DNA of 55,545 bases, taken from contig JAAYVF010000026.1 of NCBI GenBank assembly GCA_012517325.1, forward strand, positions 1 through 55,545, in the 5' to 3' direction. A model generated the notes under the pieces. That model saw only the letters and a program-made list of their open reading frames with translations. It made no database searches and was not told the DNA's origin. The position numbers and the translations under genes are program-made. Positions within the stretch are counted from its first letter, which is position 1. The number at the start of each line of letters is the position of its first letter. Of this stretch, positions 1,277-48,262 are shown piece after piece. The DNA is from Myxococcales bacterium (lineage in GTDB: Bacteria > Lernaellota > Lernaellaia > Lernaellales > Lernaellaceae).

Positions 1277-1319
1277 GCGCCGATCCATCTTGGAACCAAA
1301 ACGAACAAAGGAGATCTCC

Positions 1320-1895
1320 ATGCCAAGCGTAAAAGGAAGTCGCACTGAAAAGAATTTGTTGACCTCGTTCGCCGGTGAATCCCAGGCCCGCAATCGGTAC
1401 ACCTTCGCGGCCAGCCAGGCGAAAAAAGAAGGCCTGATCCAAATCTCGCTGGTTTTCGAGGAAACGGCCAACCAGGAAAAAGAGCACGCGAAGCGGTTCT
1501 TCTCGTTCCTGGAAGGCGGCGACCTGGCGATTGAAGCGGCTTTTCCCGCCGGCGTCGTCGGCGATACCGCGGTGCAACTGAAGCACGCGGCGGCTGGCGA
1601 ACACTTCGAATGGACCGAGATGTATCCGGGTTACGCGAAGATCGCCGCCGAGGAAGGCTTCAAGGACATCGCCACGCTTTTCCAAGCGGTCAGCAACGCC
1701 GAGGCGCAGCACGAACGGCGCTACCTCGCGTTTCTGAACAACGTCGAAAAAGGCCTGGTGTTCAAGCGCGGGGAAAAAGTGAAGTGGCGCTGCATCAACT
1801 GCGGCTACATCTACGAGGGTTACGAAGCCCCGATGAAGTGCCCGGCCTGCGCCCATCCGCAAGCCTATTACGAACTGCTCGGCGAAAACTGGTAG
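1320..1895 (+). CDS. rbr: Rubrerythrin (NADH-peroxidase-type)
   Basis: A 191-residue classical rubrerythrin that reduces H2O2 in the cytoplasm of anaerobes. The ferritin-like domain carries every diiron ligand of the Desulfovibrio prototype at the same numbering or within one residue: E20, E53, H56, E94, E97, E128, H131. The C-terminal rubredoxin domain supplies C158, C161, C174 and C177. An in-frame ATG lies upstream at 1290, but the ATG at 1320 is preferred because AAAGGAG precedes it and it gives the standard family N-terminus (MPSVKGS...). It lies 43 bp after perR, with the ferritin-like, rubredoxin and superoxide reductase genes behind it; rubredoxin is the usual electron donor. Confidence 0.95.
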   Translation: MPSVKGSRTEKNLLTSFAGESQARNRYTFAASQAKKEGLIQISLVFEETANQEKEHAKRFFSFLEGGDLAIEAAFPAGVVGDTAVQLKHAAAGEHFEWTEMYPGYAKIAAEEGFKDIATLFQAVSNAEAQHERRYLAFLNNVEKGLVFKRGEKVKWRCINCGYIYEGYEAPMKCPACAHPQAYYELLGENW

Positions 1896-1911
1896 CCGGA
1901 CGGGGTGTCAC

Positions 1912-2400
1912 ATGACCGCAGTCGCCGACCTGAATCTGGCGAGCGCGATCGAGTTGGCCATGGCGTCGGAAAAGGAAGCCGAGGCGTTTTATCGCCGGGC
2001 GGCCGACGCCTCGGCCGACCCGCGCGGAAAATCGATGTTTCGCCAACTGGCGGATTTCGAGAACAGTCATTACCTTAACCTCCAGCGCTTGCGGGATCAG
2101 TTGGGCGGCGCGCCGTTCGACGGTTATGCGGGAACGGCGTTCCTGCCCGAAAAACCCGCGGCCGCGCCGGTCGCCTTGAGCGACCTGCAAATCAAGTCCG
2201 ATACCGAGGCGATCGCCCTGGCGATTACGGCCGAGAAGAAAGCCCGCGAGGCTTATCTGAATCTCGAAAAACAGGCCGTCAGCCCGGTCGTCAAGAACAT
2301 GTTTGCCAAATTGGCGGCCGAGGAAGAGTTGCACCGGAAAGTGCTGGAAGATCAGTTTTACGCCTTGTCCAATCAAGGGCATTGGATCTGGGGCGAATGA
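1912..2400 (+). CDS. Rubrerythrin-like ferritin-family protein without rubredoxin domain
   Basis: A 162-residue four-helix ferritin-like protein. Helix pairs carry E20/E24, then E50-x-x-H53, E108 and E138-x-x-H141, a complete rubrerythrin-type diiron ligand set. The C-terminal rubredoxin domain of classical rubrerythrin is missing. An Ala/Pro-rich linker (about 78-90) separates the two helix pairs. It starts 16 bp after rubrerythrin and is followed by a free-standing rubredoxin gene, so the two may work together as a split rubrerythrin. Peroxidase or oxygen-reductase activity is inferred from family and context. Confidence 0.85.
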   Translation: MTAVADLNLASAIELAMASEKEAEAFYRRAADASADPRGKSMFRQLADFENSHYLNLQRLRDQLGGAPFDGYAGTAFLPEKPAAAPVALSDLQIKSDTEAIALAITAEKKAREAYLNLEKQAVSPVVKNMFAKLAAEEELHRKVLEDQFYALSNQGHWIWGE

Positions 2401-2444
2401 TTTTGTCGAATTAAAACGACGCATTTCGCAAAGGAGTACATAAG

Positions 2445-2603
2445 ATGAAATACGAATGCATGGTTTGCGGTTATATCTATGATCCGGCCAAGGGCGACGT
2501 CGACAACGGCGTGGAACCCGGCACCAAGTTCGAAGATCTGCCCGAGGATTGGGTTTGCCCGGTTTGTGGCGCGACTAAGGACCAATTCGAACCGGCATCT
2601 TAA
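2445..2603 (+). CDS. Rubredoxin
   Basis: A 52-residue small iron protein. Two CxxC knuckles, CMVCG (C5, C8) and CPVCG (C38, C41), bind a single Fe(Cys)4, and the typical YIYDPAKGD and [12 protein letters not shown] segments are present, so all the family landmarks are complete. AAGGAG precedes the ATG. Rubredoxins pass single electrons in the cytoplasm; here the likely partners are the rubrerythrin, the ferritin-like protein and the superoxide reductase of the same operon. It lies 44 bp after the ferritin-like gene and 55 bp before the superoxide reductase gene. Confidence 0.95.
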
Positions 2604-2658
2604 TGCCTGGCTCTTGCCAAAGGCAAAACCGAACTTACTTTCCCAAAGGAGCCAAGCA

Positions 2659-3030
2659 ATGAAAAAACTTCAAGTCTATCAGTGCGAAACGGGCGCGTTT
2701 ATCGAGGTTTTGCAGGGCGCCGAAGGGTGCGAACTGGCTTGCTGCGGCAAGCCGATGGCCGCGCTGCCGGAGAAAACAGCCGACAAGACGACGGAAAAGC
2801 ACGTTCCGGTGATCTCGGAAGTGCCGGAGGGCACCAAGGTCGTGGTCGGTTCGGTGCCGCATCCGATGCTGGACAACCACTACATCATGGTGATCGAGCT
2901 GATCGACGGCGATTTCGTCTACCGCAAATACCTCAAACCGGGCGAGGCTCCCGAAGCGATCTTCCCGGTCAAACCGAAAAACCCGGTGGCCCGCGAACTG
3001 TGCAACCTCCACGGATTATGGAAAGGATAA
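2659..3030 (+). CDS. dfx: Desulfoferrodoxin / superoxide reductase with altered centre I
   Basis: A 123-residue superoxide reductase that turns superoxide into peroxide, which rubrerythrin then removes. The catalytic centre II is complete: E46-K47-H48, H68, H74, C115 and H118 in the signatures [17 protein letters not shown] and CNLHGLWK. The N-terminal desulforedoxin-like domain is unusual. The family normally has C9-x2-C12 and a CC pair; here the region reads [12 protein letters not shown], with one residue fewer and the second cysteine missing, while C28-C29 are kept and an extra C24 appears. Centre I may therefore be lost, or ligated by C9, C24, C28 and C29. AAAGGAG precedes the ATG. The ferritin gene starts 6 bp downstream. 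Confidence 0.92.
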
Positions 3031-3036
3031 ACGACC

Positions 3037-3546
3037 ATGGCGACCATTAGTGAAAAAATCAACAAGGCCTTGAACGACCAGATGCAGTTCGAGATCGCCT
3101 CCGGCTACCTCTATTGGGGCATGGCGGCCTATTGCGAGTCGATCAACCTGCCGGGCTTCGCCCACTGGCTGGTCGCGCAGTACAACGAGGAAGTCAACGT
3201 CCACGCCCGGAAGTTCTATAGCTACATCACCGAGCGCGGCGGCCGCGCCGAGTTGGGCGCCATCGACAAGCCGCCCGTGGAGTGGAAATCCCCGCTGGCG
3301 ATTTTCGAAGCGGCCTACAAACACGAATGCATCGTCACCGAGCGCATCTACAAGCTCGCCGAACTGGCCCGCAAGGAAGGCGACCTGGCGACCGTCGAGT
3401 TTCTCAATTGGTTCATCAAAGAGCAGGTCGAGGAAGAGAAGAGCACGGACGAAATCGTGCAGATGCTCAAGATGGCCGGTGAGAAAAGCGTCCAGGCGCT
3501 GTTCATGATCAACGCCCGCTTGGCGGAACGCAAATTCGGCGGCTGA
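3037..3546 (+). CDS. ftn: Bacterial non-haem ferritin
   Basis: A 169-residue ferritin, the usual family length, that stores iron as a ferric core and keeps it out of Fenton chemistry. Residues align well with Thermotoga-type ferritins (SEKINKALNDQ, GFAHWL, YITERGGR, EFLNWFIKEQVEEE). The ferroxidase helix reads QYNEEVNVHARKF, with one residue more between Glu and His than the usual E-x-x-H; the effect on the diiron site is not known. It is the last gene of the PerR operon, 6 bp after superoxide reductase and just before a strong terminator. Confidence 0.92.
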   Translation: MATISEKINKALNDQMQFEIASGYLYWGMAAYCESINLPGFAHWLVAQYNEEVNVHARKFYSYITERGGRAELGAIDKPPVEWKSPLAIFEAAYKHECIVTERIYKLAELARKEGDLATVEFLNWFIKEQVEEEKSTDEIVQMLKMAGEKSVQALFMINARLAERKFGG

Positions 3547-3567
3547 TGTTGCCCTCCCTGTTGAATC

Positions 3568-3603
3568 AAAGCTCTTCCCGCTGACGGAGGAGCTTTTTTT
3601 AAT
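3568..3603 (+). terminator. Rho-independent terminator of the PerR operon
   Basis: Stem AAGCTCTTCC (3569-3578) pairs with GGAGGAGCTT (3586-3595, one G-U), loop of 7, followed by a run of T. It separates the oxidative-defence operon from cydAB. Confidence 0.85.
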
Positions 3604-3665
3604 TTTTTTCCTCCGGGAAATCGCCGGAAAACGCTTCCGGCAAGAGAAGGCAAAGGAGGCTCCAC

Positions 3666-5006
3666 TTGGACGCGACCCTGCTGGCACGGATACAATTCGG
3701 GGTGACGGTCGGCTTTCACTATATTTTCCCCCAGATCACCATCGGCATGGCCTGGATCCTGTTCTGGATGATGGCGCGGTGGGTGCGCACCGGGCAGCCG
3801 TTGTACCGCCGGATGGCCCGTTTCTGGACGCACATCTTCGCGCTGGTTTTCGCGGTCGGCGTGGCCACCGGCATCGTCATGGAATTTCAATTCGGCACCA
3901 ACTGGGCCGATTATTCGCGCTTCGTCGGCGACATTTTCGGCGCGCCGCTGGCCGCCGAGGGCGTGATCGCCTTTTTCCTCGAGTCCACCTTCCTGGGCAT
4001 GCTGCTGTTCGGCTGGAAGAAATTGTCGCCGAAAGTGCATCTGCTCTCGGCCGGCATGGTCGCCTTCGGCTCGACGCTGTCGGCGTTCTGGATCATCGTC
4101 GCCAATTCCTGGCAGCAGACGCCGGCCGGCTTCAAGGTCGTCGGCACGCGGGCGGAAATGACCAGCTTCGCCGAGGCGGTGTTCAACCCCTCGACGATTA
4201 TTCGTTACCTGCACACCGTCGACGGCGCGCTGATCGCCGGTTCCTTCTTCGTCCTGTCGCTTTCGGCTTGGTTCCTGCTGAAGAAAAAGCACATCGAATT
4301 CGCCGTCGAATCGATGCGCTTCGCGTTGATCGTCGGCTTGCTCGCGTCGGGTTTGCAGTTCATTTTCGGCCATCACCACGCGGTGCAGGTGTACAAGACG
4401 CAACCGCTGAAACTGGCCGCTTTCGAGGGCCATTTCGAATCGTCCGCCAACGCGCCGTTGCTGGCCTTCGGCATTCCGGACGTGGCGGCCGGCAAAACGC
4501 AGTTGGCGATCGCCCTCCCGGGAATGCTGAGTTTCGGGGTGACGGGCGATTTCAATACGGTCATCAAGGGACTGAACGAATGGCCGCGCGAGGAATGGCC
4601 GCCGATCCTGCTGACGTTTTTCCCCTTCCACCTCATGGTGGCCTTGTGGGTATTGCTGATGATCGTCACGGTTTGGGGGGTGGTGCTTCTTTACCGCAAG
4701 AAACTGCCGGAGACGCCGCTCTACCAATGGCTGGCGTTCTTGGCCGCGCCGGCGCCGATCCTCGCCAGCACCCTGGGTTGGATGACGGCGGAAATCGGTC
4801 GCCAGCCGTGGATCGTTTACGGTCTGCTCAAGACCAACGACGCCGTATCCAAGGTCGTCAGCGCCGGTGAAATTCTGTTTTCACTGCTTTTCCTCGGGTT
4901 GATTTACCTGCTGCTGTTCGGGGTCTGGGTGTTCCTGGTGCGCCACCGACTTTTACAGGGACCGGAAACCGATGAGGCGCCGGCCGGGAAGGGGGTGACG
5001 GCATGA
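3666..5006 (+). CDS. cydA: Cytochrome bd ubiquinol oxidase subunit I
   Basis: A 446-residue integral membrane protein with about nine hydrophobic segments, carrying haems b558, b595 and d; with CydB it reduces O2 to water using quinol at high affinity. Family signatures include the N-terminal LARIQFGVTVGFHYIFPQ (haem-ligand His), the Q-loop segment TQPLKLAAFEGHFE, and GWMTAEIGRQPW. The length suggests a short Q-loop type. The start is a TTG at 3666 with AAAGGAGG 7 bp upstream; no ATG gives a better N-terminus. It overlaps cydB by 4 bp. Its place beside the reactive-oxygen operon suggests a respiratory oxygen scavenger. Confidence 0.96.
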   Translation: MDATLLARIQFGVTVGFHYIFPQITIGMAWILFWMMARWVRTGQPLYRRMARFWTHIFALVFAVGVATGIVMEFQFGTNWADYSRFVGDIFGAPLAAEGVIAFFLESTFLGMLLFGWKKLSPKVHLLSAGMVAFGSTLSAFWIIVANSWQQTPAGFKVVGTRAEMTSFAEAVFNPSTIIRYLHTVDGALIAGSFFVLSLSAWFLLKKKHIEFAVESMRFALIVGLLASGLQFIFGHHHAVQVYKTQPLKLAAFEGHFESSANAPLLAFGIPDVAAGKTQLAIALPGMLSFGVTGDFNTVIKGLNEWPREEWPPILLTFFPFHLMVALWVLLMIVTVWGVVLLYRKKLPETPLYQWLAFLAAPAPILASTLGWMTAEIGRQPWIVYGLLKTNDAVSKVVSAGEILFSLLFLGLIYLLLFGVWVFLVRHRLLQGPETDEAPAGKGVTA

Positions 5007-6019
5007 ATACACTGCAAACCGTTTGGTATCTGCTCGTCGGCGTGCTGCTGACGGGATACGCGTTGCTGGACGGCTTCGATCTGGGCACCGGCTGGTGGTA
5101 CTGGCGGGCGCGCAAAACCGAGCACCGCACGTTGATGCTCTCGGCGATCGGCCCGGTGTGGGATGGCAACGAGGTCTGGTTGATCACCGGCGGCGGCGCG
5201 TTGTTCGCGGCTTTTCCGCCGGTTTATGCCTCGGTGTTTTCAGGTATGTACCTGGCCCTGGTACTCGTGCTTTTCGGTTTAATCATGCGCGCGACCTCGA
5301 TCGAATTCCGCGGCCAACTCCACGACGAGAAATGGCGGCGGTTCTGGGACGTCGCGTTCAGTCTGGGCAGCCTGCTGCCGGCGCTGCTGTTCGGGGTCGC
5401 CATGGGGAACGTGATCCGCGGCCTGGAACTCAACGCCAATGGTGATTACCAGGGCACGTTCCTCGGGCTGCTCAATCCGTATTCGCTGTTCGGCGGCGTG
5501 CTGGGGCTGGTCATGTTCATCGTGCATGGCGGGCTTTACCAATTGTTGAAACAGGACGGCGAACCGGCCGCGGCGATCAAGGCCGAATTGAGTCCGTGGT
5601 GGTGGGCCTACCTGATCCTGTTCCTGGCGGTCGGGCCGCTGACGGCGGTTTTCGCGGGTCACATGTATAAAAATTTCATGCAATTCCCGCTGCTGTTCAT
5701 CCTGCCGGCGTTCATCCTGGGCGGGATCATCATGATCCGGATTTATCTCAATTCCGCCCAATACGGTAAAGCGTTCATCGCTTCGAGCGTGACGATCGTC
5801 TCGCTGATGCTGACCGTCGGCGCGATGATGTTTCCGACCCTGGTTTGGGCGACCGATCCGGCCCTGCATCTGACGGCATTCAATTCCTCATCCTCGCAGT
5901 TGACCCTGACGGTCATGCTGGTCGTCGCGCTGATCGGCATGCCCATCGTGCTGGCCTACAACTACTGGGTTTATAAAACCTTCGCCGGTAAGGTGACCTT
6001 GGAGGACAGCCACTACTAG
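5003..6019 (+). CDS. cydB: Cytochrome bd ubiquinol oxidase subunit II
   Basis: A 338-residue membrane protein with about eight to nine transmembrane helices, the partner of CydA. The N-terminus WYLLVGVLLTGYALLDGFDL and the following GPVWDGNEVWLITGGGALFAAFP block are CydB signatures. Its ATG overlaps the cydA stop (ATGA), so translation is probably coupled. Neither cydC/cydD nor a small cydX-type gene was found next to it. A terminator follows about 20 bp downstream. Confidence 0.96.
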   Translation: MNTLQTVWYLLVGVLLTGYALLDGFDLGTGWWYWRARKTEHRTLMLSAIGPVWDGNEVWLITGGGALFAAFPPVYASVFSGMYLALVLVLFGLIMRATSIEFRGQLHDEKWRRFWDVAFSLGSLLPALLFGVAMGNVIRGLELNANGDYQGTFLGLLNPYSLFGGVLGLVMFIVHGGLYQLLKQDGEPAAAIKAELSPWWWAYLILFLAVGPLTAVFAGHMYKNFMQFPLLFILPAFILGGIIMIRIYLNSAQYGKAFIASSVTIVSLMLTVGAMMFPTLVWATDPALHLTAFNSSSSQLTLTVMLVVALIGMPIVLAYNYWVYKTFAGKVTLEDSHY

Positions 6020-23852: not shown

Positions 23853-24482
23853 ATGATGCCGATCGTTCAGCCGGACATCGAAAAATACCTGGCCACCGTG
23901 CGCTCGCCGTCGGTTCCGCCGTTGGCCGAAATGGAGGCCTGGGCGGCGGCGCACGATTTCCCGATCGTCGGCCCCGATGTCGGCCGATTGTTGTTCATCC
24001 TGGCGCGTTTCGCCGGGGCGCGGCGAGTGCTGGAATTGGGCTCCGGTTACGGTTACAGCGCGTTTTGGTTCGCCCTGGCGCTGCCGCCGGACGGCGAGGT
24101 TCATTGCACGGACCAATCGGCGGACAATCGCGATCGCGCCCGGGACTATTTCCGGCGGGCGGGAATGGAGGGCAAACTGCACTTTCACGTCGGCGAGGCG
24201 CTGTCGCTGGCCCGCGGAATTCAGGGGCCGTTCGACATCGTTTTTAGTGATATCGACAAGGAGGATTATCCGGCGGCGATCGCAACCGCGACGACTTTGC
24301 TGCGCGCGGGCGGTTTGTTCGTCACCGACAATGCCTTGTGGTACGGCAAGGTCGCCGCGCCGGAACCGGATGCGCCGACGCGCGGTGTCCTGCGGTTCAA
24401 TCAATCACTGGCGGCCGATTCTCGTTACGAAACGGTGATCCTGCCGCTGCGCGATGGTTTGTCGGTGGCCGTGAAAAAGTAG
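23853..24482 (+). CDS. O-methyltransferase family 3 (caffeoyl-CoA OMT-like)
   Basis: A 209-residue cytoplasmic SAM-dependent methyltransferase. The SAM-binding glycine motif VLELGSGYGYSAFWFALAL lies near residue 55-75; the metal-binding Asp motifs are DIVFSDIDKEDY and FVTDNALWYGKV, and the family's ending VILPLRDGLSVAVKK is complete. Bacterial members methylate catechols or similar small molecules; the substrate is unknown. GGAGATGGAAGG precedes the double ATG. It is divergent from pncA and lies 42 bp before the ferritin-GGDEF gene, with which it may be cotranscribed. Confidence 0.85.
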   Translation: MMPIVQPDIEKYLATVRSPSVPPLAEMEAWAAAHDFPIVGPDVGRLLFILARFAGARRVLELGSGYGYSAFWFALALPPDGEVHCTDQSADNRDRARDYFRRAGMEGKLHFHVGEALSLARGIQGPFDIVFSDIDKEDYPAAIATATTLLRAGGLFVTDNALWYGKVAAPEPDAPTRGVLRFNQSLAADSRYETVILPLRDGLSVAVKK

Positions 24483-24524: not shown

Positions 24525-25592
24525 TTGATCGCGGAGACTCGCGAGAAACGAAAGGGCGTGCTTTTCGAGATTCTCGAATCGTGCCTGCAGATCGACGAAC
24601 TGGCGGTCGAAATCTACCAGCGGTTCGCGACGGATTCGCCGGCCGGCGACTTACGGCGATTCTGGGAAGAATTGGCGGTCGAGGAAAAGGATCACGTCGG
24701 TCTCTGGGAAAAGATGCTCAAGCTGGCCGAATTGCACATCCTGCCGCAGGTATTCGATCAGCCGTTCATCATTCGGGATAAGTTGGCCGGGATTCTGGCG
24801 CGCAGCCGGGAACGATTCGGCGAATACTGCCGTAAACCGGAGTCACATCAGGCGTTTCTGGTGGCGACGGAATTGGAGTTCCAGATGCTGCACGAGGCCT
24901 TTCTAACATTGATTCATTTTTACAATCAACTGACGGACAGCGAAATCGCGCCGCTGGATTACCGCCGGCATATCACAATGTTCATCGAGGGAACCCGCGC
25001 GTTCAATCCCGAGAGCCCGGATTTGCAATTGCTGATGCAATCGATCGAATCGATGTTCAATAATGTCCAGGCTCTGGTGGAATACGGCCGCACCGACAGT
25101 TTGACGGGATTGGTCAATCGGCGCGGTTTTCTGGCCACGTTGTCGACCCACGCCTACCTGGCGCAACGCAATTCCTACGCCATGGCCGTGCTGTTGATCG
25201 ACGTGGACGAGTTGAAGCGAATCAACGAAGAGCGCGGTTTCGCCGTCGGTGATCGCCTCCTGCAGGTCATCGCCGAGAAATTGAGCGAGGATGTGCGGCA
25301 CTCCGATTTGCTCGGCCGCTACGAAGGGGATTGCTTTGCCATGGCCTTGAGCCGCGTCACCGCCAAGTCGGTGCCCAAGGTGGTCGAAACGATCCGTCGC
25401 CGCGTGGAACTGGAAACCGCCGCGCTGGGCGCTCCGGCCACGGTGAGTGTCGGTGCGGTCTACGGAAAATTTCGTCGCACGGTCGACACCAATCTGCCCC
25501 GGCTCATCGAATCCGCGGAACAGAATTTACGCAAAGCCAAGAGCGACGGAACGAATCGAATCGTGGTCACTGGAATACCCGCCGGCCGATAA
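24525..25592 (+). CDS. Ferritin-like domain fused to a degenerate GGDEF domain
   Basis: A 355-residue cytoplasmic protein. Residues 12-135 look like a rubrerythrin-type four-helix bundle: E25/E29 in IDELAVEIY, E54-x-x-H57 in VEEKDHVGLWEKML, and E116/E118 with H123 in ATELEFQMLHEAF; a second clean E-x-x-H is not seen. Residues about 185-350 are a GGDEF domain (TDSLTGLVNRRGF, LLIDVDELKRINEERG), but the active-site loop reads E267-G-D-C-F271 in place of GG(D/E)EF, so cyclase activity is probably lost. The protein may bind nucleotide and report iron, O2 or peroxide. It starts at TTG with GGAGGG 8 bp upstream. The hydrogenase operon follows on the same strand. Confidence 0.78.
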   Translation: MIAETREKRKGVLFEILESCLQIDELAVEIYQRFATDSPAGDLRRFWEELAVEEKDHVGLWEKMLKLAELHILPQVFDQPFIIRDKLAGILARSRERFGEYCRKPESHQAFLVATELEFQMLHEAFLTLIHFYNQLTDSEIAPLDYRRHITMFIEGTRAFNPESPDLQLLMQSIESMFNNVQALVEYGRTDSLTGLVNRRGFLATLSTHAYLAQRNSYAMAVLLIDVDELKRINEERGFAVGDRLLQVIAEKLSEDVRHSDLLGRYEGDCFAMALSRVTAKSVPKVVETIRRRVELETAALGAPATVSVGAVYGKFRRTVDTNLPRLIESAEQNLRKAKSDGTNRIVVTGIPAGR

Positions 25593-25980
25593 AGCAGTGG
25601 TGTATCTCGTTGTTTTTCGATCGGCCAATGCGGCTGGAAAGCTAAAATATATGGAAAGTGGCGTAATTAAGCGATTCAAAAGACGAAAAAATCACAGAAT
25701 CCCGTTAATGCTTTAACAGGGAGGGTATCGTGAGGAAATTCACAGCGCAAAAATTTTCCACCACGCAAATATTTTGATAGCTTTTACAGGACGTTTTTGG
25801 CCTGTAAGTCCAATTGTCGCAATCGAAAATGCCGAATCGCGCGAATCGATTTCAACACGGGAGAATGGTTGCACTTTCCTCTTGACCTTCGGGGGCCGGT
25901 TAAGTATTCTGAGCAACCTGAATGAGCACTCACTCAAAGAAGCCAATCATGTCAGAGGGCAAAAAGCACTGGGGTTTATT
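25593..25980 (+). other. Leader and promoter region of the hydrogenase operon
   Basis: No gene is supported here. The reading frame of hoxF is open back to 25774, but that stretch has no family similarity and lies upstream of the best promoter. The right third holds the promoter and a transcript leader of about 65 nt. A 20-codon frame (25922-25984, starting MSTHSKK) overlaps the hoxF start by its stop codon; it has no clear ribosome binding site. Confidence 0.5.
25882..25910 (+). promoter_or_regulatory. Putative promoter of the hox-hyp operon
   Basis: TTGACC (25882-25887), a 17-bp spacer, and TATTCT (25905-25910) form a good housekeeping-type promoter about 70 bp before the hoxF start codon. 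It is the only strong candidate in the gap and would drive the whole hydrogenase cluster. Confidence 0.6.
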
Positions 25981-27798
25981 ATGAGCGAAAGTCTGGCAAG
26001 CACCATCAACAAGATCTGTGGCGGAGTGGGGAAGGATCAATCGCGGTTAATGGACATCGTCGAGGCCGTCCAAGCCAAAAACGGGTACATCAGCAGCGAA
26101 GCGATCGACCTCATCGCGAAGGAACTGGGCATCCCGCGAGTGGAAGTGGCGAGCTTGGTTTCGTTTTACGCTTTCTTCTCCGACACGCCCAAGGGCAAGA
26201 TCGTCATCCGGCTGTGCAACGACATCATCGACAAATATCAGGGTGTCGATCAGGTCGCCGAGGCCTTCAAACAGGAACTGGGCATCGATTTCGGCGAAAC
26301 CACGAAAGACGGCAAGATCAGCCTCGAATGGGCGCCCTGCATCGGGATGAGCGATCAGGCGCCGGCGGCGCTGGTCAACGACGTCGTGGTGACCTACCTG
26401 TCCAGCGACAAGGCGCGGGAAATCGTCCGCACCCTGAAGGAAACCGGCGACCCGAAACGGCTGGTCAAGCGCCTGGGTGACGGCTTCAACGCCCACGAAC
26501 TGGTTCGTTCCATGGTCCACAACAACCTGCGCCGCAAAGGCCAGGTGTTGTTCGCCGATTTCCCGTCCGGCGAGGGGCTGCGCAAAGCCCTGGCGATGAG
26601 TTCGGTGGAAGTCATCCGCGAAATCAAAACGGCCCGCCTGCGCGGCCGCGGCGGCGCGGGCTTCCCGACCGGCCTCAAGTGGGAGTTCACCCGCAATTCC
26701 GACGGCAAGCAGAAATACGTGCTGTGCAACGCCGACGAAGGCGAGCCCGGCACGTTCAAAGACCGCGTGCTGCTCACCGAACGCGCCGACATGCTGTTCG
26801 AAGGCATGACGATCGCCGGTTACGCGATCGGCGCCGAAATGGGCATCCTGTATCTGCGCGGCGAATACGCTTACCTCGAAGCCTACCTGAACAAGGTGCT
26901 CGACGACCGCCGCCGCCAGGGCTGGCTCGGCGCGAACATCATGGGCAAGCAGGGCTTCAATTTCGACATCCGCATTCAGATGGGCGCCGGCGCTTACGTC
27001 TGCGGCGAGGAAACCGCGCTGATCAGCTCCTGCGAGGGCCTGCGCGGCGATCCGAAAAACCGGCCGCCGTTCCCCGCCCAAAAGGGCTATCTAGGCAACC
27101 CGTCGACGGTCAACAACGTCGAGACGTTCTGCTGCGTGCCGCGCATCATCGAACAGGGCGCGGCGTGGTTCTCGGAAATCGGCTCGCACGGCAGCCCCGG
27201 CACCAAGTTGTTGTCGGTCAGCGGTGACTGCTCCAGCCCGGGCGTCTACGAGATTCCGTTCGGCATGACGCTGGCCGATCTGCTCAAGGAAGTCGGCGGC
27301 ACGGACGCGATCGCGGTGCAGATGGGCGGCCCCTCGGGCAACCTGGTCGGTCCCGCCGATTTCGGCCGGACGATCTGCTTCGACGACCTGGCGACCGGCG
27401 GCTCGGTGATGATCTTCGGGCCGGAACGCGACGTGCTCGAGGTGGCCGAGTCCTTCATGGAATTCTTCATCCATGAAAGCTGCGGCTACTGCACGCCCTG
27501 CCGGGTCGGCAACCGCCTGCTCCGCGAGCGCCTGCATCAGATCCGCGCGCTCCAGGGCACGCCGCAAGACATCGAGTACCTGCAGAAGCTGGGCGAGATC
27601 GTCAAAGCCGCAAGCCGCTGCGGGTTGGGCCAGACCTCGCCGAACCCCGTTTTGACGACGCTGAAAAACTTCCGCCCGGCGTACAACGCTCTGGTCCACC
27701 CGATGAAGGACGGCCAGCAGCCGACCTTCGACCTGGCGCAGGCGTTGAAGTTGGCCGAAAAAGTGCAGGGCCGCAAAGCGGTCCATCACCACGAATAG
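25981..27798 (+). CDS. hoxF: NAD-coupled [NiFe] hydrogenase diaphorase subunit HoxF (fused NuoE-NuoF type)
   Basis: A 605-residue flavoprotein that exchanges electrons between NAD(H) and the hydrogenase iron-sulfur chain. Residues 1-150 form a NuoE/HoxE thioredoxin-like domain; only two of the four usual [2Fe-2S] cysteines remain (C79 and C120; D84 and S124 stand at the other positions). Residues about 190-600 are NuoF/HoxF: FMN/NADH motifs RGRGGAGFPTGLKW (221-234) and CNADEGEPGTFKDR, and the [4Fe-4S] ligands C501, C504, C507 and C547. The ATG at 25981 is chosen because similarity begins there and the promoter lies just upstream; no strong ribosome binding site is seen. It is the first gene of the operon. 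Confidence 0.93.
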   Translation: MSESLASTINKICGGVGKDQSRLMDIVEAVQAKNGYISSEAIDLIAKELGIPRVEVASLVSFYAFFSDTPKGKIVIRLCNDIIDKYQGVDQVAEAFKQELGIDFGETTKDGKISLEWAPCIGMSDQAPAALVNDVVVTYLSSDKAREIVRTLKETGDPKRLVKRLGDGFNAHELVRSMVHNNLRRKGQVLFADFPSGEGLRKALAMSSVEVIREIKTARLRGRGGAGFPTGLKWEFTRNSDGKQKYVLCNADEGEPGTFKDRVLLTERADMLFEGMTIAGYAIGAEMGILYLRGEYAYLEAYLNKVLDDRRRQGWLGANIMGKQGFNFDIRIQMGAGAYVCGEETALISSCEGLRGDPKNRPPFPAQKGYLGNPSTVNNVETFCCVPRIIEQGAAWFSEIGSHGSPGTKLLSVSGDCSSPGVYEIPFGMTLADLLKEVGGTDAIAVQMGGPSGNLVGPADFGRTICFDDLATGGSVMIFGPERDVLEVAESFMEFFIHESCGYCTPCRVGNRLLRERLHQIRALQGTPQDIEYLQKLGEIVKAASRCGLGQTSPNPVLTTLKNFRPAYNALVHPMKDGQQPTFDLAQALKLAEKVQGRKAVHHHE

Positions 27799-27809
27799 AG
27801 GGTGGTACC

Positions 27810-28535
27810 ATGAGTGACGCAATCACCTTTATCATTGACGGTGTCGAGATCAAGGCCCAACCGGGGCAGACCATCCTGCAGGCGGCCGAGGCGGCGGGCA
27901 TCTACATCCCGCGGCTGTGCTTCCATCCCGAGCTGAAGGTGCACGGCAGTTGCCGCGTTTGCACGGTGCTGGTCAACGGCCGGCCGCAGGCGGCCTGCAC
28001 GCAGCCGGTGGCGCCGGGCATGATCGTCGACAACGGCTCCGAGAAAATCGCGGCGATCCGCCGCGCCATCATCGACATGTTGTTCGTCGAGGGCAACCAC
28101 TTCTGCATGTTCTGCGAAAAGAGCGGCAACTGCGAACTGCAGGCGATGGCCTATCGCTTCGGCATCGCCGCCCCGCAGTATCCCTATCTCTTCCCGCAAC
28201 GGGAAGTGGACGCCTCGCACCCTGATATCTTCATCGACCGCAACCGCTGCATCCTCTGCGGTCGTTGCGTGCGCGCCTCGCGCGATGTCGACGGCAAGAC
28301 GGTGTTTGAGTTCGTCGGCCGCGGCCACCACAAGAAGCTGGCGGTCAACGCCGACGCCGACCTGGCCGCGACCAACGCGGCGGCCACCGACAAGGCGGTG
28401 CAGATTTGCCCGGTGGGCGCACTGTTGCGCAAGCGGGTGGGCTACAAGATTCCGGTGGGCCAGCGGTTGTACGACCACGAGCCGATCGGCTCCGCTATCG
28501 AGAAAAAACAAGCTTCGGCCAGCGCCGATAAGTGA
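27810..28535 (+). CDS. hoxU: NAD-coupled [NiFe] hydrogenase diaphorase subunit HoxU
   Basis: A 241-residue iron-sulfur protein linking HoxF to HoxYH, related to the NuoG N-terminus. An N-terminal plant-type [2Fe-2S] ferredoxin domain has the cysteines of RLCFHP, GSCRVCTVLV and ACTQPV. The His/Cys-ligated [4Fe-4S] segment is EGNHFCMFCEKSGNCELQ, and a further [4Fe-4S] site is formed by RCILCGRCV with QICPVGAL near the C-terminus. It starts 11 bp after hoxF and ends 9 bp before hoxY. The C-terminal tail is short and polar. Confidence 0.94.
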   Translation: MSDAITFIIDGVEIKAQPGQTILQAAEAAGIYIPRLCFHPELKVHGSCRVCTVLVNGRPQAACTQPVAPGMIVDNGSEKIAAIRRAIIDMLFVEGNHFCMFCEKSGNCELQAMAYRFGIAAPQYPYLFPQREVDASHPDIFIDRNRCILCGRCVRASRDVDGKTVFEFVGRGHHKKLAVNADADLAATNAAATDKAVQICPVGALLRKRVGYKIPVGQRLYDHEPIGSAIEKKQASASADK

Positions 28536-28544
28536 GGTTGACAG

Positions 28545-29090
28545 ATGGAAAAACCGAAAATCGCCACGGCATCTCTGGCTGGTTGCTTCGGCTGTCACAT
28601 GTCGATCCTGGACATTGACGACCGGATTCTGAAACTGGTCGAGTTGATCGATTTCGACAAGTCGCCGGTGGACGACATCAAGGAATTCACCGGCCGGTGT
28701 CTGGTCGGCCTGATCGAAGGCGGCTGCGCCAACGAGGAAAACGTCCGCGTGCTGCGCGACTTTCGCAAACACTGCGACATCCTCATCTCGGTCGGCGACT
28801 GCGCGATCATGGGCGGCCTGCCCGCGATGCGCAACACGGTGCCGCTCAAGGAATGCCTCGAAGAGGCGTACCTCAACGGCCCGACCGTTTACAACCCGAG
28901 CGGCAAACTGCCCAACGATCCGGAAATCCCGCTGCTTCTCGACAAGGTCTATCCCTGTCACGAAGTGGTGAAAATCGACTATCACCTCCCCGGCTGTCCG
29001 CCTCCAGCCGACACGTTGTGGGAAGCGTTGGTCGCGTTGCTTACCGGCAAACCGCTGGCCCTGCCGTACGAACTCATTAAGTACGACTGA
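28545..29090 (+). CDS. hoxY: [NiFe] hydrogenase small subunit HoxY
   Basis: A 181-residue small subunit carrying the proximal [4Fe-4S] cluster. The ligands lie in AGCFGCHMS (C14, C17), IEGGCAN, VGDCAIMGG and YHLPGCPPP. It lacks a twin-arginine signal and the medial and distal cluster region of membrane hydrogenases, as expected for cytoplasmic group 3d enzymes. It pairs with HoxH and receives electrons from HoxU/HoxF. It lies 9 bp after hoxU and 23 bp before hoxH. Confidence 0.95.
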   Translation: MEKPKIATASLAGCFGCHMSILDIDDRILKLVELIDFDKSPVDDIKEFTGRCLVGLIEGGCANEENVRVLRDFRKHCDILISVGDCAIMGGLPAMRNTVPLKECLEEAYLNGPTVYNPSGKLPNDPEIPLLLDKVYPCHEVVKIDYHLPGCPPPADTLWEALVALLTGKPLALPYELIKYD

Positions 29091-29113
29091 GCGAGAGAGG
29101 ATAGGGAGTCGCC

Positions 29114-30556
29114 ATGAAAGAGACGAAAGAATTAAAACGCGTGGTTATCGAACCCGTGACGCGTGTCGAGGGTCACGGCAAGGTGACCTTGCTGCTCGAC
29201 GAGAAAAACAAGGTCGCGCAGGCGCGCCTGCACATCGTCGAGTTCCGCGGTTTCGAGCGCTTTATCCAAGGCCGGCCGTACTGGGAAGTGCCCGTGCTGG
29301 TGCAGCGGCTGTGCGGTATCTGCCCGGTCAGCCACCACCTGGCGGCCGCCAAGGCGATGGACGTCATCGTCGGCGCCGACCGGTTGACCCCGACCGCCGA
29401 GAAGATGCGCCGCCTGATGCACTACGGCCAGATGTTCCAGTCGCATGCGTTGCACTTCTTCCACTTGGCGTCGCCGGACCTGCTGTTCGGCTTCGACGCC
29501 GATCCGGCGATCCGCAACGTCATCGGCATCATCTACAAGCACCCCGACCTGGCCGTCCAGGCGGTGATGATGCGTAAGTACGGGCAGGAAATCATCAAGC
29601 GGACCGCGGGCAAGAAAATCCACGGCACCGGCGCGATCCCCGGCGGCATCAACAAAAACCTCACCATCGAGGAACGCGATTACCTGCTGAAAGACCTCGA
29701 CCAGATGATCACCTGGTCGCGCGGCGCGATGGCCATCGTCAAGGACATCACGCGCAAGGGACTCGAAGCGCTGGCGCCGTTCGGCTCCTTCGATTCGAAC
29801 CACGTGAGCCTGATCCGCGCCGACGGCGCGATGGATCTGTACCACGGCAACCTGCGCGCGATCGACGCCGGCGGCAAGAAGATCTTCGATCAGGTCGACT
29901 ACCAGAAATACTACGACTACATCGCCGAGGAAGTGCGGCCGTGGTCGTACATGAAGTTCCCGTTCATCAAATCGATTGGCCCGGAAAACGGCTGGTACCG
30001 CGTCGGCCCGCTGGCCCGCGTGAACGCCGCCGATTTCATCGATACGCCCGAGGCGGAAGCCGAACGGAATGAATTCATGGCGTTGGGCGGCGGCAAGCCG
30101 ATCAACATCACGATGGCGTATCACTGGGCGCGCATCATCGAATTGTTGCACTCGATCGAAAAGATCAAGGAACTGCTGAACGACAAGGATTTGCAGGGCA
30201 ACGATCTGGTGGTCAACGGCCAGCGCCGCGAGGAAGGCGTCGGCCTCATCGAGGCGCCGCGCGGTACGCTGTTCCACCACTATCGCGTCGACAAGAACGA
30301 CCAGGTGGTCATGGGCAACTTGATCGTCTCCACCACCAGCAACAACGAGCCGATGAACCGGGCGGTGCAGAAGGTCGCGGCCGACACGTTCGACGGCCGG
30401 GCGATCACCGAGGGCATGCTCAACGGCATCGAAGTGGCCATCCGGGCCTACGATCCGTGCCTGTCCTGCGCGACGCACGCCCTGGGCCAGATGCCGCTCG
30501 AAGTGACGCTGGTCGACGCCGAGGGTAACCTGGTCGACAGGAAGACGAGAGGTTGA
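29114..30556 (+). CDS. hoxH: [NiFe] hydrogenase large subunit HoxH
   Basis: A 480-residue catalytic subunit with the Ni-Fe(CN)2CO centre. The N-terminal pair is C67-G-I-C70 in RLCGICPVSHH; the C-terminal pair is C449-x-x-C452 in DPCLSCATH. The 25 residues after H455 form the extension removed by the maturation protease, encoded next. Together with HoxFUY the set matches group 3d bidirectional NAD-linked hydrogenases. A GGGAG site precedes the ATG. The hoxW start lies inside its last codons. Confidence 0.96.
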   Translation: MKETKELKRVVIEPVTRVEGHGKVTLLLDEKNKVAQARLHIVEFRGFERFIQGRPYWEVPVLVQRLCGICPVSHHLAAAKAMDVIVGADRLTPTAEKMRRLMHYGQMFQSHALHFFHLASPDLLFGFDADPAIRNVIGIIYKHPDLAVQAVMMRKYGQEIIKRTAGKKIHGTGAIPGGINKNLTIEERDYLLKDLDQMITWSRGAMAIVKDITRKGLEALAPFGSFDSNHVSLIRADGAMDLYHGNLRAIDAGGKKIFDQVDYQKYYDYIAEEVRPWSYMKFPFIKSIGPENGWYRVGPLARVNAADFIDTPEAEAERNEFMALGGGKPINITMAYHWARIIELLHSIEKIKELLNDKDLQGNDLVVNGQRREEGVGLIEAPRGTLFHHYRVDKNDQVVMGNLIVSTTSNNEPMNRAVQKVAADTFDGRAITEGMLNGIEVAIRAYDPCLSCATHALGQMPLEVTLVDAEGNLVDRKTRG

Positions 30557-38813: not shown

Positions 38814-38947
38814 CGAATCCTCCCGGACGATTCGACTTCGATCTTACCGGAAGTTGGCGCGCTGTCAAATTTTCCCGCCTGGAACTTGTGGTGCTCCCGG
38901 GAAGAGTGATAAAAAGTAGGGCAAATACGAGGACGGATGGCCCGACG

Positions 38948-40597
38948 ATGACGAAAGAACCGGAATCCCTGGCGGCGGTGAAAAAGCGGAACAAGGAACT
39001 AGCCGATCAACTCGTGCGACTGGATCGCCGGTTGTTCGATCTGATGAGCCTGCTGCAAGCCAACAAGGCGTTCGACAACATTCTCGAGGCGCGCGAGCTT
39101 TACAACGTTTTTGCCAGCATCATCCATGAAAAGCTCGGCATCGAATCCTACGCGCTGTTCATCATGGATGAGACGGAATCGAATTTTCATCTCGTGCGCG
39201 GGTTCGGCCTGCCCGAGGAAATGCCGGTCGAATTTTCGTTTCCCCGCCAGGAAGGCCTGTTGTGGCAAGCCATCTTGCAGGGGAAACCGTTTTCCGTGGT
39301 GGATCGCGACGAGCTGCCACGGTTCCAGGTGCCGTTCGAAAAATTCAATCTGACCGTACTCAACAGCCGCCTGTTTTTGCCGCTGGTGCACAAAGCGCGG
39401 GTCGTCGGCGTCCTATCCATCGGCCCCAAAATGGACGGCTCGACCTTTTCCGAGGAAGACCTGGAATTCCTGTCGATCCTCGCCGCGCACGCCGCCGTCA
39501 GTTTCACCACCACGGCGCTTTACGAAAAAAACCAGAACGACAAGGCCAATCTCGACAAAACCGTCAAGAACCTCTCGATGCTCTACAACATCGGCCGGGC
39601 GATGATTCACATCAGCGATCTGAAAAATCTGCTGAAGTTCATTCTCGGCGAGGCCGTGAAAACCACCGAGGCGCAGAAGGGCTCGCTGATGCTGTACGAC
39701 GCCAACATCCAGCGCCTCGTGCTGCGCGTCGTCAAAGGCCTGCCCGATCCGCGCACCGAGGAAGCGATCAACAGCGGCGAAATCGAATGCGCCACCTTCG
39801 GCGTGGGCGAGGGCATCGCCGGCAAGGTTTTTCAGACGCTCAAGCCGATCATCGCCAATTCCACCACTGACGACGACCGCTACATGGCGCGCGAGGCGTC
39901 GAACGTCGATTCGATCCTCTGCATCCCGCTGATCGCCTCCGACGAACCGATCGGCGTCATCAACATCACCAACAAAAAGAACGGCAAGAAATTCACCCAC
40001 GAGGACGTCGATCTGCTCACGGCCCTGGGCAACCAGGCCGCCGTCGCCATCAACAACGCCACCCTCTACGAGATGGCCATCACCGACGAACTGACCAAGC
40101 TGTATATCCGCCGCTATTTCAACGTGCGCCTCGATACCGAGATGAAACGGGCCCGCCGCTACGGGCACAAGCTTGCCCTGGCGATCTGCGACCTCGACCA
40201 TTTCAAAAGCGTCAACGATACGTTCGGTCACCAGGTCGGCGACATCGTGCTGACGAAAGTGGCCGACATGGTCAAGATGCGCGTCCGCGAAATCGACACC
40301 CCGGCCCGCTTCGGCGGCGAGGAGTTCGCCATCATCCTGCCGGAAACCGATTACCGCGGCGCCGTGGCGATGGCCGAACGGCTCCGCGAATCCGTGGCGC
40401 AAATCGAGTTCCCCGAAATGGGCCGCAACGTCACCATCAGCATCGGCCTGTCTTCCTACCCGGATCACGCCGACGACAAGCAGGGATTGATCCGCACCGC
40501 CGACACGGCGCTCTACGAGGCCAAACGCCAGGGGCGCAACCGCGTCTGTGTCTACGCGGTGCCCAAGGCCGGCGAAAAAACCGAAACGAAGCAATAA
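38948..40597 (+). CDS. GAF-GAF diguanylate cyclase
   Basis: A 549-residue cytoplasmic protein that makes cyclic di-GMP. A short coiled-coil (residues 10-45) leads into two GAF domains (about 50-205 and 225-390). The GGDEF domain (about 390-545) is intact: TDELTKLYIRRYF, the active-site G456-G-E-E-F460, and the inhibitory I-site R447-x-x-D450 exactly five residues before it. It should therefore be active and product-inhibited, in contrast to the degenerate GGDEF protein at 24525. The ATG at 38948 is preferred over a GTG at 38888, which has no better ribosome binding site. GAF ligands are unknown. Confidence 0.9.
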   Translation: MTKEPESLAAVKKRNKELADQLVRLDRRLFDLMSLLQANKAFDNILEARELYNVFASIIHEKLGIESYALFIMDETESNFHLVRGFGLPEEMPVEFSFPRQEGLLWQAILQGKPFSVVDRDELPRFQVPFEKFNLTVLNSRLFLPLVHKARVVGVLSIGPKMDGSTFSEEDLEFLSILAAHAAVSFTTTALYEKNQNDKANLDKTVKNLSMLYNIGRAMIHISDLKNLLKFILGEAVKTTEAQKGSLMLYDANIQRLVLRVVKGLPDPRTEEAINSGEIECATFGVGEGIAGKVFQTLKPIIANSTTDDDRYMAREASNVDSILCIPLIASDEPIGVINITNKKNGKKFTHEDVDLLTALGNQAAVAINNATLYEMAITDELTKLYIRRYFNVRLDTEMKRARRYGHKLALAICDLDHFKSVNDTFGHQVGDIVLTKVADMVKMRVREIDTPARFGGEEFAIILPETDYRGAVAMAERLRESVAQIEFPEMGRNVTISIGLSSYPDHADDKQGLIRTADTALYEAKRQGRNRVCVYAVPKAGEKTETKQ

Positions 40598-47548: not shown

Positions 47549-48262
47549 TTATTGCGTGGTTTTTTCGAGCACACCGGCCAACCCACAAGCGATCAGCCGA
47601 TGCAAATTTTGTCGAATTTCCTCCGGATCTCCCTTGAAAATGCCCAGGCCCATGCCCAGAAAATCGGAATAAAACGCTTCCTGCAGACTGCTGGAAAGCG
47701 TTTCCACCTGAAACACGATGATTGGCGGATCGAGATCGGCGCGCAGTTCGCCGCGTCTCCGGGCGGCGTCGATTTCGCGCTGAAAATACGGCTGGATCAT
47801 CGACACCCGGTCGAAGAAGAAATCGAGATGCGGCAGATTGTCGATGTGAATGTGCTTCATGTAGAAGCGAAAATAGGCCGGATGGCTTTCCTGGATGAAG
47901 TGTCGCATGAACATCAAGTACTCGACCAGAAAGCCTGGGAGGCTGGCAAACTCCTGCGATTCTCGCCAGGCCAGAAATTCCTCGATCCAGATGCCGGTCG
48001 TATAGGCTACTTGGGCGGCGAATAAGGATTCCTTGCTGTCGAAGTAGTGATAGGCCAGTCCCTGCGCGACCCCGGCCCGCCGGGCGATATCGCGAATGGA
48101 GACGTCGAAATAGCCCCGTTCGGCGAATTCCTGGGTTGCCGCTTCCAAAATAACTTGTCGCGTGTGATCGCGGAGATGCGCGGTATTGCGGCGCCGTTTT
48201 CCCGAGCTTTCGGTTAAGGCCGCTTTTTGAACCGGAGTATCGATTGGCGCCCGCACGGTCAT
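47549..48262 (-). CDS. TetR-family transcriptional regulator
   Basis: A 237-residue repressor-type regulator. A basic N-terminal arm (about 1-33) precedes the TetR helix-turn-helix (residues about 35-80: VILEAATQEFAERGYFDVSIRDIARRAGVAQGLAYHYF). The C-terminal part is helical and should bind a ligand. A perfect 24-bp palindrome lies 12 bp upstream of the start, over the predicted transcription start, so it probably represses itself. AGGA precedes the ATG. The three exported Asp-rich proteins follow downstream with gaps of 17-22 bp; they are probably in the same transcript and under its control. Confidence 0.88.
   Translation of the reverse strand: MTVRAPIDTPVQKAALTESSGKRRRNTAHLRDHTRQVILEAATQEFAERGYFDVSIRDIARRAGVAQGLAYHYFDSKESLFAAQVAYTTGIWIEEFLAWRESQEFASLPGFLVEYLMFMRHFIQESHPAYFRFYMKHIHIDNLPHLDFFFDRVSMIQPYFQREIDAARRRGELRADLDPPIIVFQVETLSSSLQEAFYSDFLGMGLGIFKGDPEEIRQNLHRLIACGLAGVLEKTTQ

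Follow-up and report, generated by a model that had tools for sequence, protein, structure and literature searches.

A ferritin-like GGDEF fusion protein with a degenerate A-site encoded next to a [NiFe] hydrogenase operon

The fusion gene and its locus

Within the window (the whole stretch of DNA analysed, 55,545 nucleotides) there is a gene encoding a ferritin-like domain followed by a GGDEF domain with the A-site sequence EGDCF (Table 1). The open reading frame and the Pfam matches agree with the preliminary description of this gene, which gave the same two domains in this order. Translation starts from TTG, and a ribosome-binding site GGAGGGAG lies ~6 nt upstream. The protein has a relative of solved structure, PDB 3EZU from Geobacter sulfurreducens, that matches residues 12-348 with an E value of 7e-55 (phmmer). 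The two share a homologous N-terminal domain and a GGDEF domain in the same order, and they align from end to end.

Downstream on the same strand lie the genes of a NAD-coupled [NiFe] hydrogenase, comprising a fused NuoE/NuoF-like gene, a HoxU-like gene, a VhuG-like small subunit and a VhuA-like large subunit, together with hyp genes. The fusion gene had been placed directly before this operon. Order and strand are as stated, but 388 bp separate its stop codon at 25592 from the hydrogenase ATG at 25981, the start as read in this analysis. The O-methyltransferase gene on the upstream side is perhaps co-transcribed with the fusion gene. The gap before the hydrogenase contains no Rfam match, and RNA folding of the gap gave nothing unusual (z 0.66). 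A search for signals at the fusion locus found no terminator, and no promoter beyond chance.

A near-palindrome, TGAATGAGCACTCACTCA, occupies positions 25919-25936, about 45 bp before the hydrogenase ATG. It has a counterpart in G001, a genome of the same family, upstream of the orthologous operon (G001:C22:31924-31941, L065), with 17 of 18 bases identical and in inverted orientation. A few additional copies occur across the three genomes of the family, and none of the control pattern. The element looks like a TetR-type operator. Elsewhere in the window there is a gene judged by eye to be TetR-like (47549-48262, minus strand), and consecutive genes for rubrerythrin, desulfoferrodoxin and the cytochrome bd oxidase CydAB (1290-6019) form an oxygen-defence cluster of the kind found in anaerobes and microaerophiles.

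Table 1. Features of the fusion gene and its neighbours, in window coordinates.
Feature	Position	Strand	Basis or conservation
O-methyltransferase gene (PF01596)	23853..24482	+	E 2.6e-39; 42 bp upstream of the fusion gene; 64% identical in the G001 syntenic block
Ferritin-like/GGDEF fusion gene, 355 aa	24525..25592	+	Open reading frame with ribosome-binding site; end-to-end match to PDB 3EZU
N-terminal ferritin-like (rubrerythrin-type) helical domain, residues 1-186	24525..25082	+	Profile comparison; helical prediction
D24, predicted helix-A metal ligand	24594..24596	+	Asp in 7 and Glu in 1 of 8 ligand-intact members
E54-K-D-H57, predicted helix-B ExxH ligands	24684..24695	+	Kept in 8/8 ligand-intact members; aligns with rubrerythrin ExxH
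E118, predicted helix-C ligand	24876..24878	+	8/8 ligand-intact members; Gln or Thr in others
Y146-R-R-H149, helix-D YxxH replacing ExxH	24960..24971	+	Y146 in 12/12; H149 in 8/8 ligand-intact members, Tyr elsewhere
GGDEF domain (PF00990), residues 190-345, degenerate A-site	25092..25559	+	Pfam E 7e-33
R258-H-S-D261, I-site RxxD five residues before the A-site motif	25296..25307	+	Sequence; conservation
E267-G-D-C270-F271, degenerate GGDEF signature	25323..25337	+	Sequence
NAD-coupled [NiFe] hydrogenase genes	25981..30556	+	NCBIfam and Pfam matches

Relatives of the fusion protein

A search for the same fusion elsewhere, suggested when the gene was first described, yielded 3EZU and nine further GGDEF fusions. 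Together with the window protein and one protein with another tail these make up our comparison set of 12. Whole-genome searches placed full-length fusions in G001, in L023 and L032, both genomes from a further small phylum, and in six of the 277 genomes of one class (L046-L050 and L052), which from its pilin neighbourhood and Geobacter-like copies we infer to be Desulfuromonadia. Searches of several hundred other genomes sampled across the bacteria turned up no fusion beyond a broken copy in G245. A scan of a genome collection for close relatives returned matches to the GGDEF domain only, with the N-terminal domain absent, and a search of viral contigs found none. The distribution is rare and patchy. 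Diiron bundles as inputs to c-di-GMP domains had been called rare; the rarity stands, but there are precedents in the hemerythrin-GGDEF protein Bhr-DGC (PMC9388753) and in the solved structure 3EZU.

In the protein with another tail (L051:1288-2061, minus strand) the same ferritin-like N-terminal domain is followed by a Cys-rich sequence (CxxC...CxxC) in place of the GGDEF domain. The ferritin-like domain is thus a module with more than one output. The G245 copy (L028, about 1300-2080, minus strand) opens with a ferritin-like sequence that has ExxH, is next interrupted by stops and frame breaks, and continues with a GGDEF domain whose motif is intact; it is probably a pseudogene or the product of poor assembly.

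The window and G001 copies group together with support of 77/89, which is not decisive for their being orthologues. The G001 copy is very divergent, with an end branch of 3.3 changes per site. It lacks both the ligand set described below and the Arg of the I-site, and its A-site is degenerate, as is that of the window copy.

Assignment of the N-terminal domain

The Pfam Rubrerythrin model matches the window protein weakly, over residues 15-67 with an E value of 0.005 that is under the cut-off. Six of the 12 family members match this model at E values up to 0.1, and the N-terminal domain of L051 exceeds the cut-off (26.7 bits vs 22.8). When a profile of all 12 N-terminal domains was compared with seven stand-alone ferritin-like proteins the match had a probability of 98.4% and an E value of 5.7e-15, with D24, E54, H57 and E118 aligned to the conserved ligands of helices A, B and C. 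A five-member profile searched against the PDB found 3EZU first, and then an encapsulated ferritin, a designed diiron protein, EncB and TM1526, all weak. We therefore consider the domain to be ferritin-like despite its sub-cut-off Pfam score, and the profile comparison and the L051 score support the rubrerythrin-like bundle proposed originally. No Pfam match to a hemerythrin domain was found in the window protein at E values up to 5.

Single-sequence structure models (mean pLDDT of 38 and 59) have an N-terminal domain that is helical throughout, at a confidence too low for ligand geometry to be read. A fold search with a low-confidence model of this kind again ranked 3EZU first, as a weak match (E 0.06).

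A non-canonical predicted metal site

The E-x-x-H motif noted at the outset is present as E54-K-D-H57, and belongs to a set of predicted metal positions, D/E24, E54xxH57, E118 and H149, that is retained in eight of the 12 proteins, including that of the window. Within these eight, no acidic or His column of the N-terminal domain other than E54, H57, E118 and H149 is fully conserved; the remaining columns conserved in all eight are hydrophobic, aromatic (Y146 among them) or Pro. The losses of E54, E118 and H149 go together, with Thr, Gln and Tyr taking their places in the Geobacter clade, and His, Thr and Tyr in the G001 copy. Three of the four ligand-losing members form one clade, so the losses represent at least two events, not four.

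The full six-ligand arrangement of a diiron site (E, ExxH, E, ExxH) is not found in any member, as all 12 have Tyr146 in place of the helix-D Glu. The predicted site is non-canonical for this reason, and may hold one metal or none. Since Y146 is retained even by members that lack the other ligands, its conservation is at least partly structural. The expectation of conserved diiron ligands in homologues is therefore only partly borne out; the five predicted positions hold in eight of the 12 members, but at least three are gone from the G001 copy and from the Geobacter clade, and the helix-D Glu is absent throughout. A metal site in the window protein is likely from these conservation patterns, though not a standard six-ligand diiron site.

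A degenerate GGDEF domain with a retained I-site

The window protein departs from the GG(D/E)EF signature of active diguanylate cyclases. Six columns that are invariant in the nine relatives with a complete GGDEF domain are altered: L209, F230, H239, E270, D332 and V346. At the A-site the changes are E270C, H239F and F230L, a Glu as first residue of the motif, and Thr343 where the relatives have Arg or Lys. By comparison, the motif was located in 12 further GGDEF proteins encoded by this genome, and all 12 have GG(D/E)EF. The domain had been described as inactive-looking, and both the EGDCF sequence and the breaks at F230, H239 and E270 are consistent with that. Retained are D226, D228, K231, G242, D243, G268, R258 and D261, all invariant in the nine relatives, as well as N234, and D269 at the third position of the motif.

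The same description held that the catalytic Glu was lost. A Glu has indeed gone, from the fourth position, but the catalytic acid of the third position, D269, is kept. In tDGC deprotonation of the 3'-OH is assigned to the third-position Asp (PMC4215984), so the Glu that was called catalytic is that of the fourth position. In VCA0965 replacing this Glu with Ala (AGDEF to AGDAF) abolished the effects on motility and biofilm, whereas AGDEF and SGDEF proteins are active (PMC3974145). The window protein is thus probably a dead cyclase. With the third-position Asp, D226, K231, N234 and D243 all kept, it might still bind GTP or have some residual activity. A redox role for C270, also proposed earlier, was rejected because the position is not conserved, with Glu in nine relatives and Ala in L016, and comparison lends it no support.

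The RxxD I-site of the window protein has the usual spacing from the A-site motif, and RxxD is kept in every relative with a complete GGDEF domain bar L016. A broken A-site with R258-D261 retained is the pattern of degenerate-GGDEF c-di-GMP receptors. CdgA (GVNEF, RxxD) is of this kind, being without cyclase activity and binding c-di-GMP with a Kd of about 2 uM (PMC3271064). By this sequence criterion the window protein may bind c-di-GMP at its I-site, and the genome's roughly dozen intact GG(D/E)EF proteins are possible suppliers. One possible source lies in the window itself, a GAF-GAF-GGDEF protein with an intact GGEEF motif (38888-40597, plus strand).

Adjacency to two different hydrogenases

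G001 has a gene-for-gene counterpart of the region from 18621 to about 37000, at 54-80% identity, but the fusion gene is missing from it. The region includes the [NiFe] operon, whose orthologue on G001:C22 is 72-80% identical. The G001 fusion copy sits instead in an [FeFe] hydrogenase cluster, between hydF and Rex-HydCBA, in the order hydF, an aspartase-like gene, the fusion, a response regulator, Rex, HydC, HydB, HydA and a hydrogenase-like sensor kinase. This HydA is an NADH-dependent, group A6 [FeFe] enzyme. A version of this [FeFe] locus exists in the window genome too, again without the fusion gene. Thus in each of the two genera of the family that carry it the gene adjoins a different NAD-coupled hydrogenase, and the orthologous locus of the other genome lacks it in each case. 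The hydrogenase neighbourhood first remarked in the window is thereby strengthened, recurring in a second genus with another hydrogenase type. There are few hydrogenase clusters in about 5.2 Mb, so the double adjacency is unlikely to arise by chance, though these are still two cases. None of the relatives outside the family of the window genome was found near a hydrogenase, and their neighbours are unrelated. Neither the ligand set nor the I-site Arg survives in the G001 copy, so the mechanism need not be the same for both copies.

The sensor kinase beside the G001 [FeFe] hydrogenase (L054:162-2252, minus strand) has a hydrogenase-like H-cluster and FeS domain fused to a histidine kinase. Similar matches adjoin HydA in G000 and G002, and the protein is a putative H2- or redox-sensing kinase.

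Discussion

The architecture is not new. 3EZU is a structural-genomics entry (NP_951600.1, structure deposited 2008) that in the literature searched appears only twice, among examples of proteins crystallised with a ligand of unassigned identity (PMC2954221) and as one sequence of a GGDEF alignment (PMC4215984). It is absent from those metal lists that were examined, and its clade has lost three of the five predicted ligand positions. It shares the N-terminal helical domain, the GGDEF domain and the RxxD I-site with the window protein, but has DGDEF, with the fourth-position Glu kept, where the window protein has EGDCF. Judged by sequence, the window protein is a variant whose A-site looks dead and whose predicted metal site is intact though non-canonical, and its gene has a hydrogenase neighbourhood. 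Our literature searches found no paper studying the 3EZU protein or naming the fusion as a signalling family, and none treating ferritin-like domains as inputs to c-di-GMP signalling.

The nearest functional analogue, by virtue of a non-haem metal-binding helical bundle N-terminal to a GGDEF domain and a redox-sensing logic, is Bhr-DGC of Vibrio cholerae, whose reduced form is the active cyclase (PMC9388753). That enzyme is active, however, and hemerythrin and ferritin-like domains are separate families. Receptors of the CdgA/PopA type resemble the window protein in having a broken A-site with RxxD kept five residues upstream; they differ from it in that it has a ferritin-like input and its c-di-GMP binding is only predicted. 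Rubrerythrin-type proteins (PF02915) share the helix-A acid, helix-B ExxH, helix-C Glu and helix-D His, but the window protein has YxxH for the helix-D ExxH and a fused output domain, and is without a rubredoxin domain.

We tentatively favour, at a little under even confidence, a regulator responsive to metal or redox state and to c-di-GMP, tied to the neighbouring hydrogenase, with a dead cyclase and the I-site as receptor. The family would be a small one of soluble one-component signalling proteins with a ferritin-like sensor and a GGDEF output. In the Desulfuromonadia-like and other relatives a metal-loaded bundle would probably sense O2, peroxide or redox state and control a working diguanylate cyclase. 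In the window protein the sensor site would be kept and the cyclase probably dead, leaving the RxxD I-site. The protein would then act as a receptor, in which the conformation of a dimer depends on the metal or redox state of the bundle and on c-di-GMP at the I-site. A partner reading that conformation might affect the expression or activity of the NAD-coupled hydrogenase.

It is unlikely, though deserving of some weight, that the protein is instead a GTP-sensing or protein-protein scaffold, in which a partner is gated by a degenerate A-site that binds GTP or GDP but does not turn it over, while the bundle is structural or binds a small molecule and not a metal. The unidentified ligand in 3EZU, the four members that lost the metal ligands yet kept the domain, and the persistence of Y146 where the ligands are lost would all fit such a role, but the window protein keeps all five ligand positions, the sole conserved acidic or His columns of its N-terminal domain. 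Retention of those ligands and of the I-site, in an intact frame of 355 codons with a ribosome-binding site, also speaks against a decaying gene, mobile or recently inserted and heading for loss, that lies next to the hydrogenase by accident. We think this improbable given that both copies adjoin NAD-coupled hydrogenases at different loci, although the gene is missing from the G001 syntenic locus and from most relatives, the G001 copy is extremely divergent, both A-sites are degenerate and the G245 relative appears broken.

We are yet more doubtful of a real diguanylate cyclase of low activity, tolerant of A-site variation and regulated by its ferritin-like domain in the manner of Bhr-DGC. Retention of D226, D228, K231, N234, D243, G268 and D269, the role of the third-position Asp in tDGC (PMC4215984) and the activity of AGDEF and SGDEF proteins (PMC3974145) are in accord with it. 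Against this, nine relatives all have Glu at the fourth position, where a change to Ala inactivated VCA0965, the residues invariant in relatives as H239 and F230 are changed as well, and the tolerated variants that have been described differ at the first position only.

The family offers natural variants that keep or lack the metal site, and keep or lack an intact cyclase, in which to test how a GGDEF dimer is driven by a non-haem metal bundle. The adjacency to two different NAD-coupled hydrogenases, one in each of two genera, suggests that hydrogen metabolism is linked to c-di-GMP or redox state, which can be tested.
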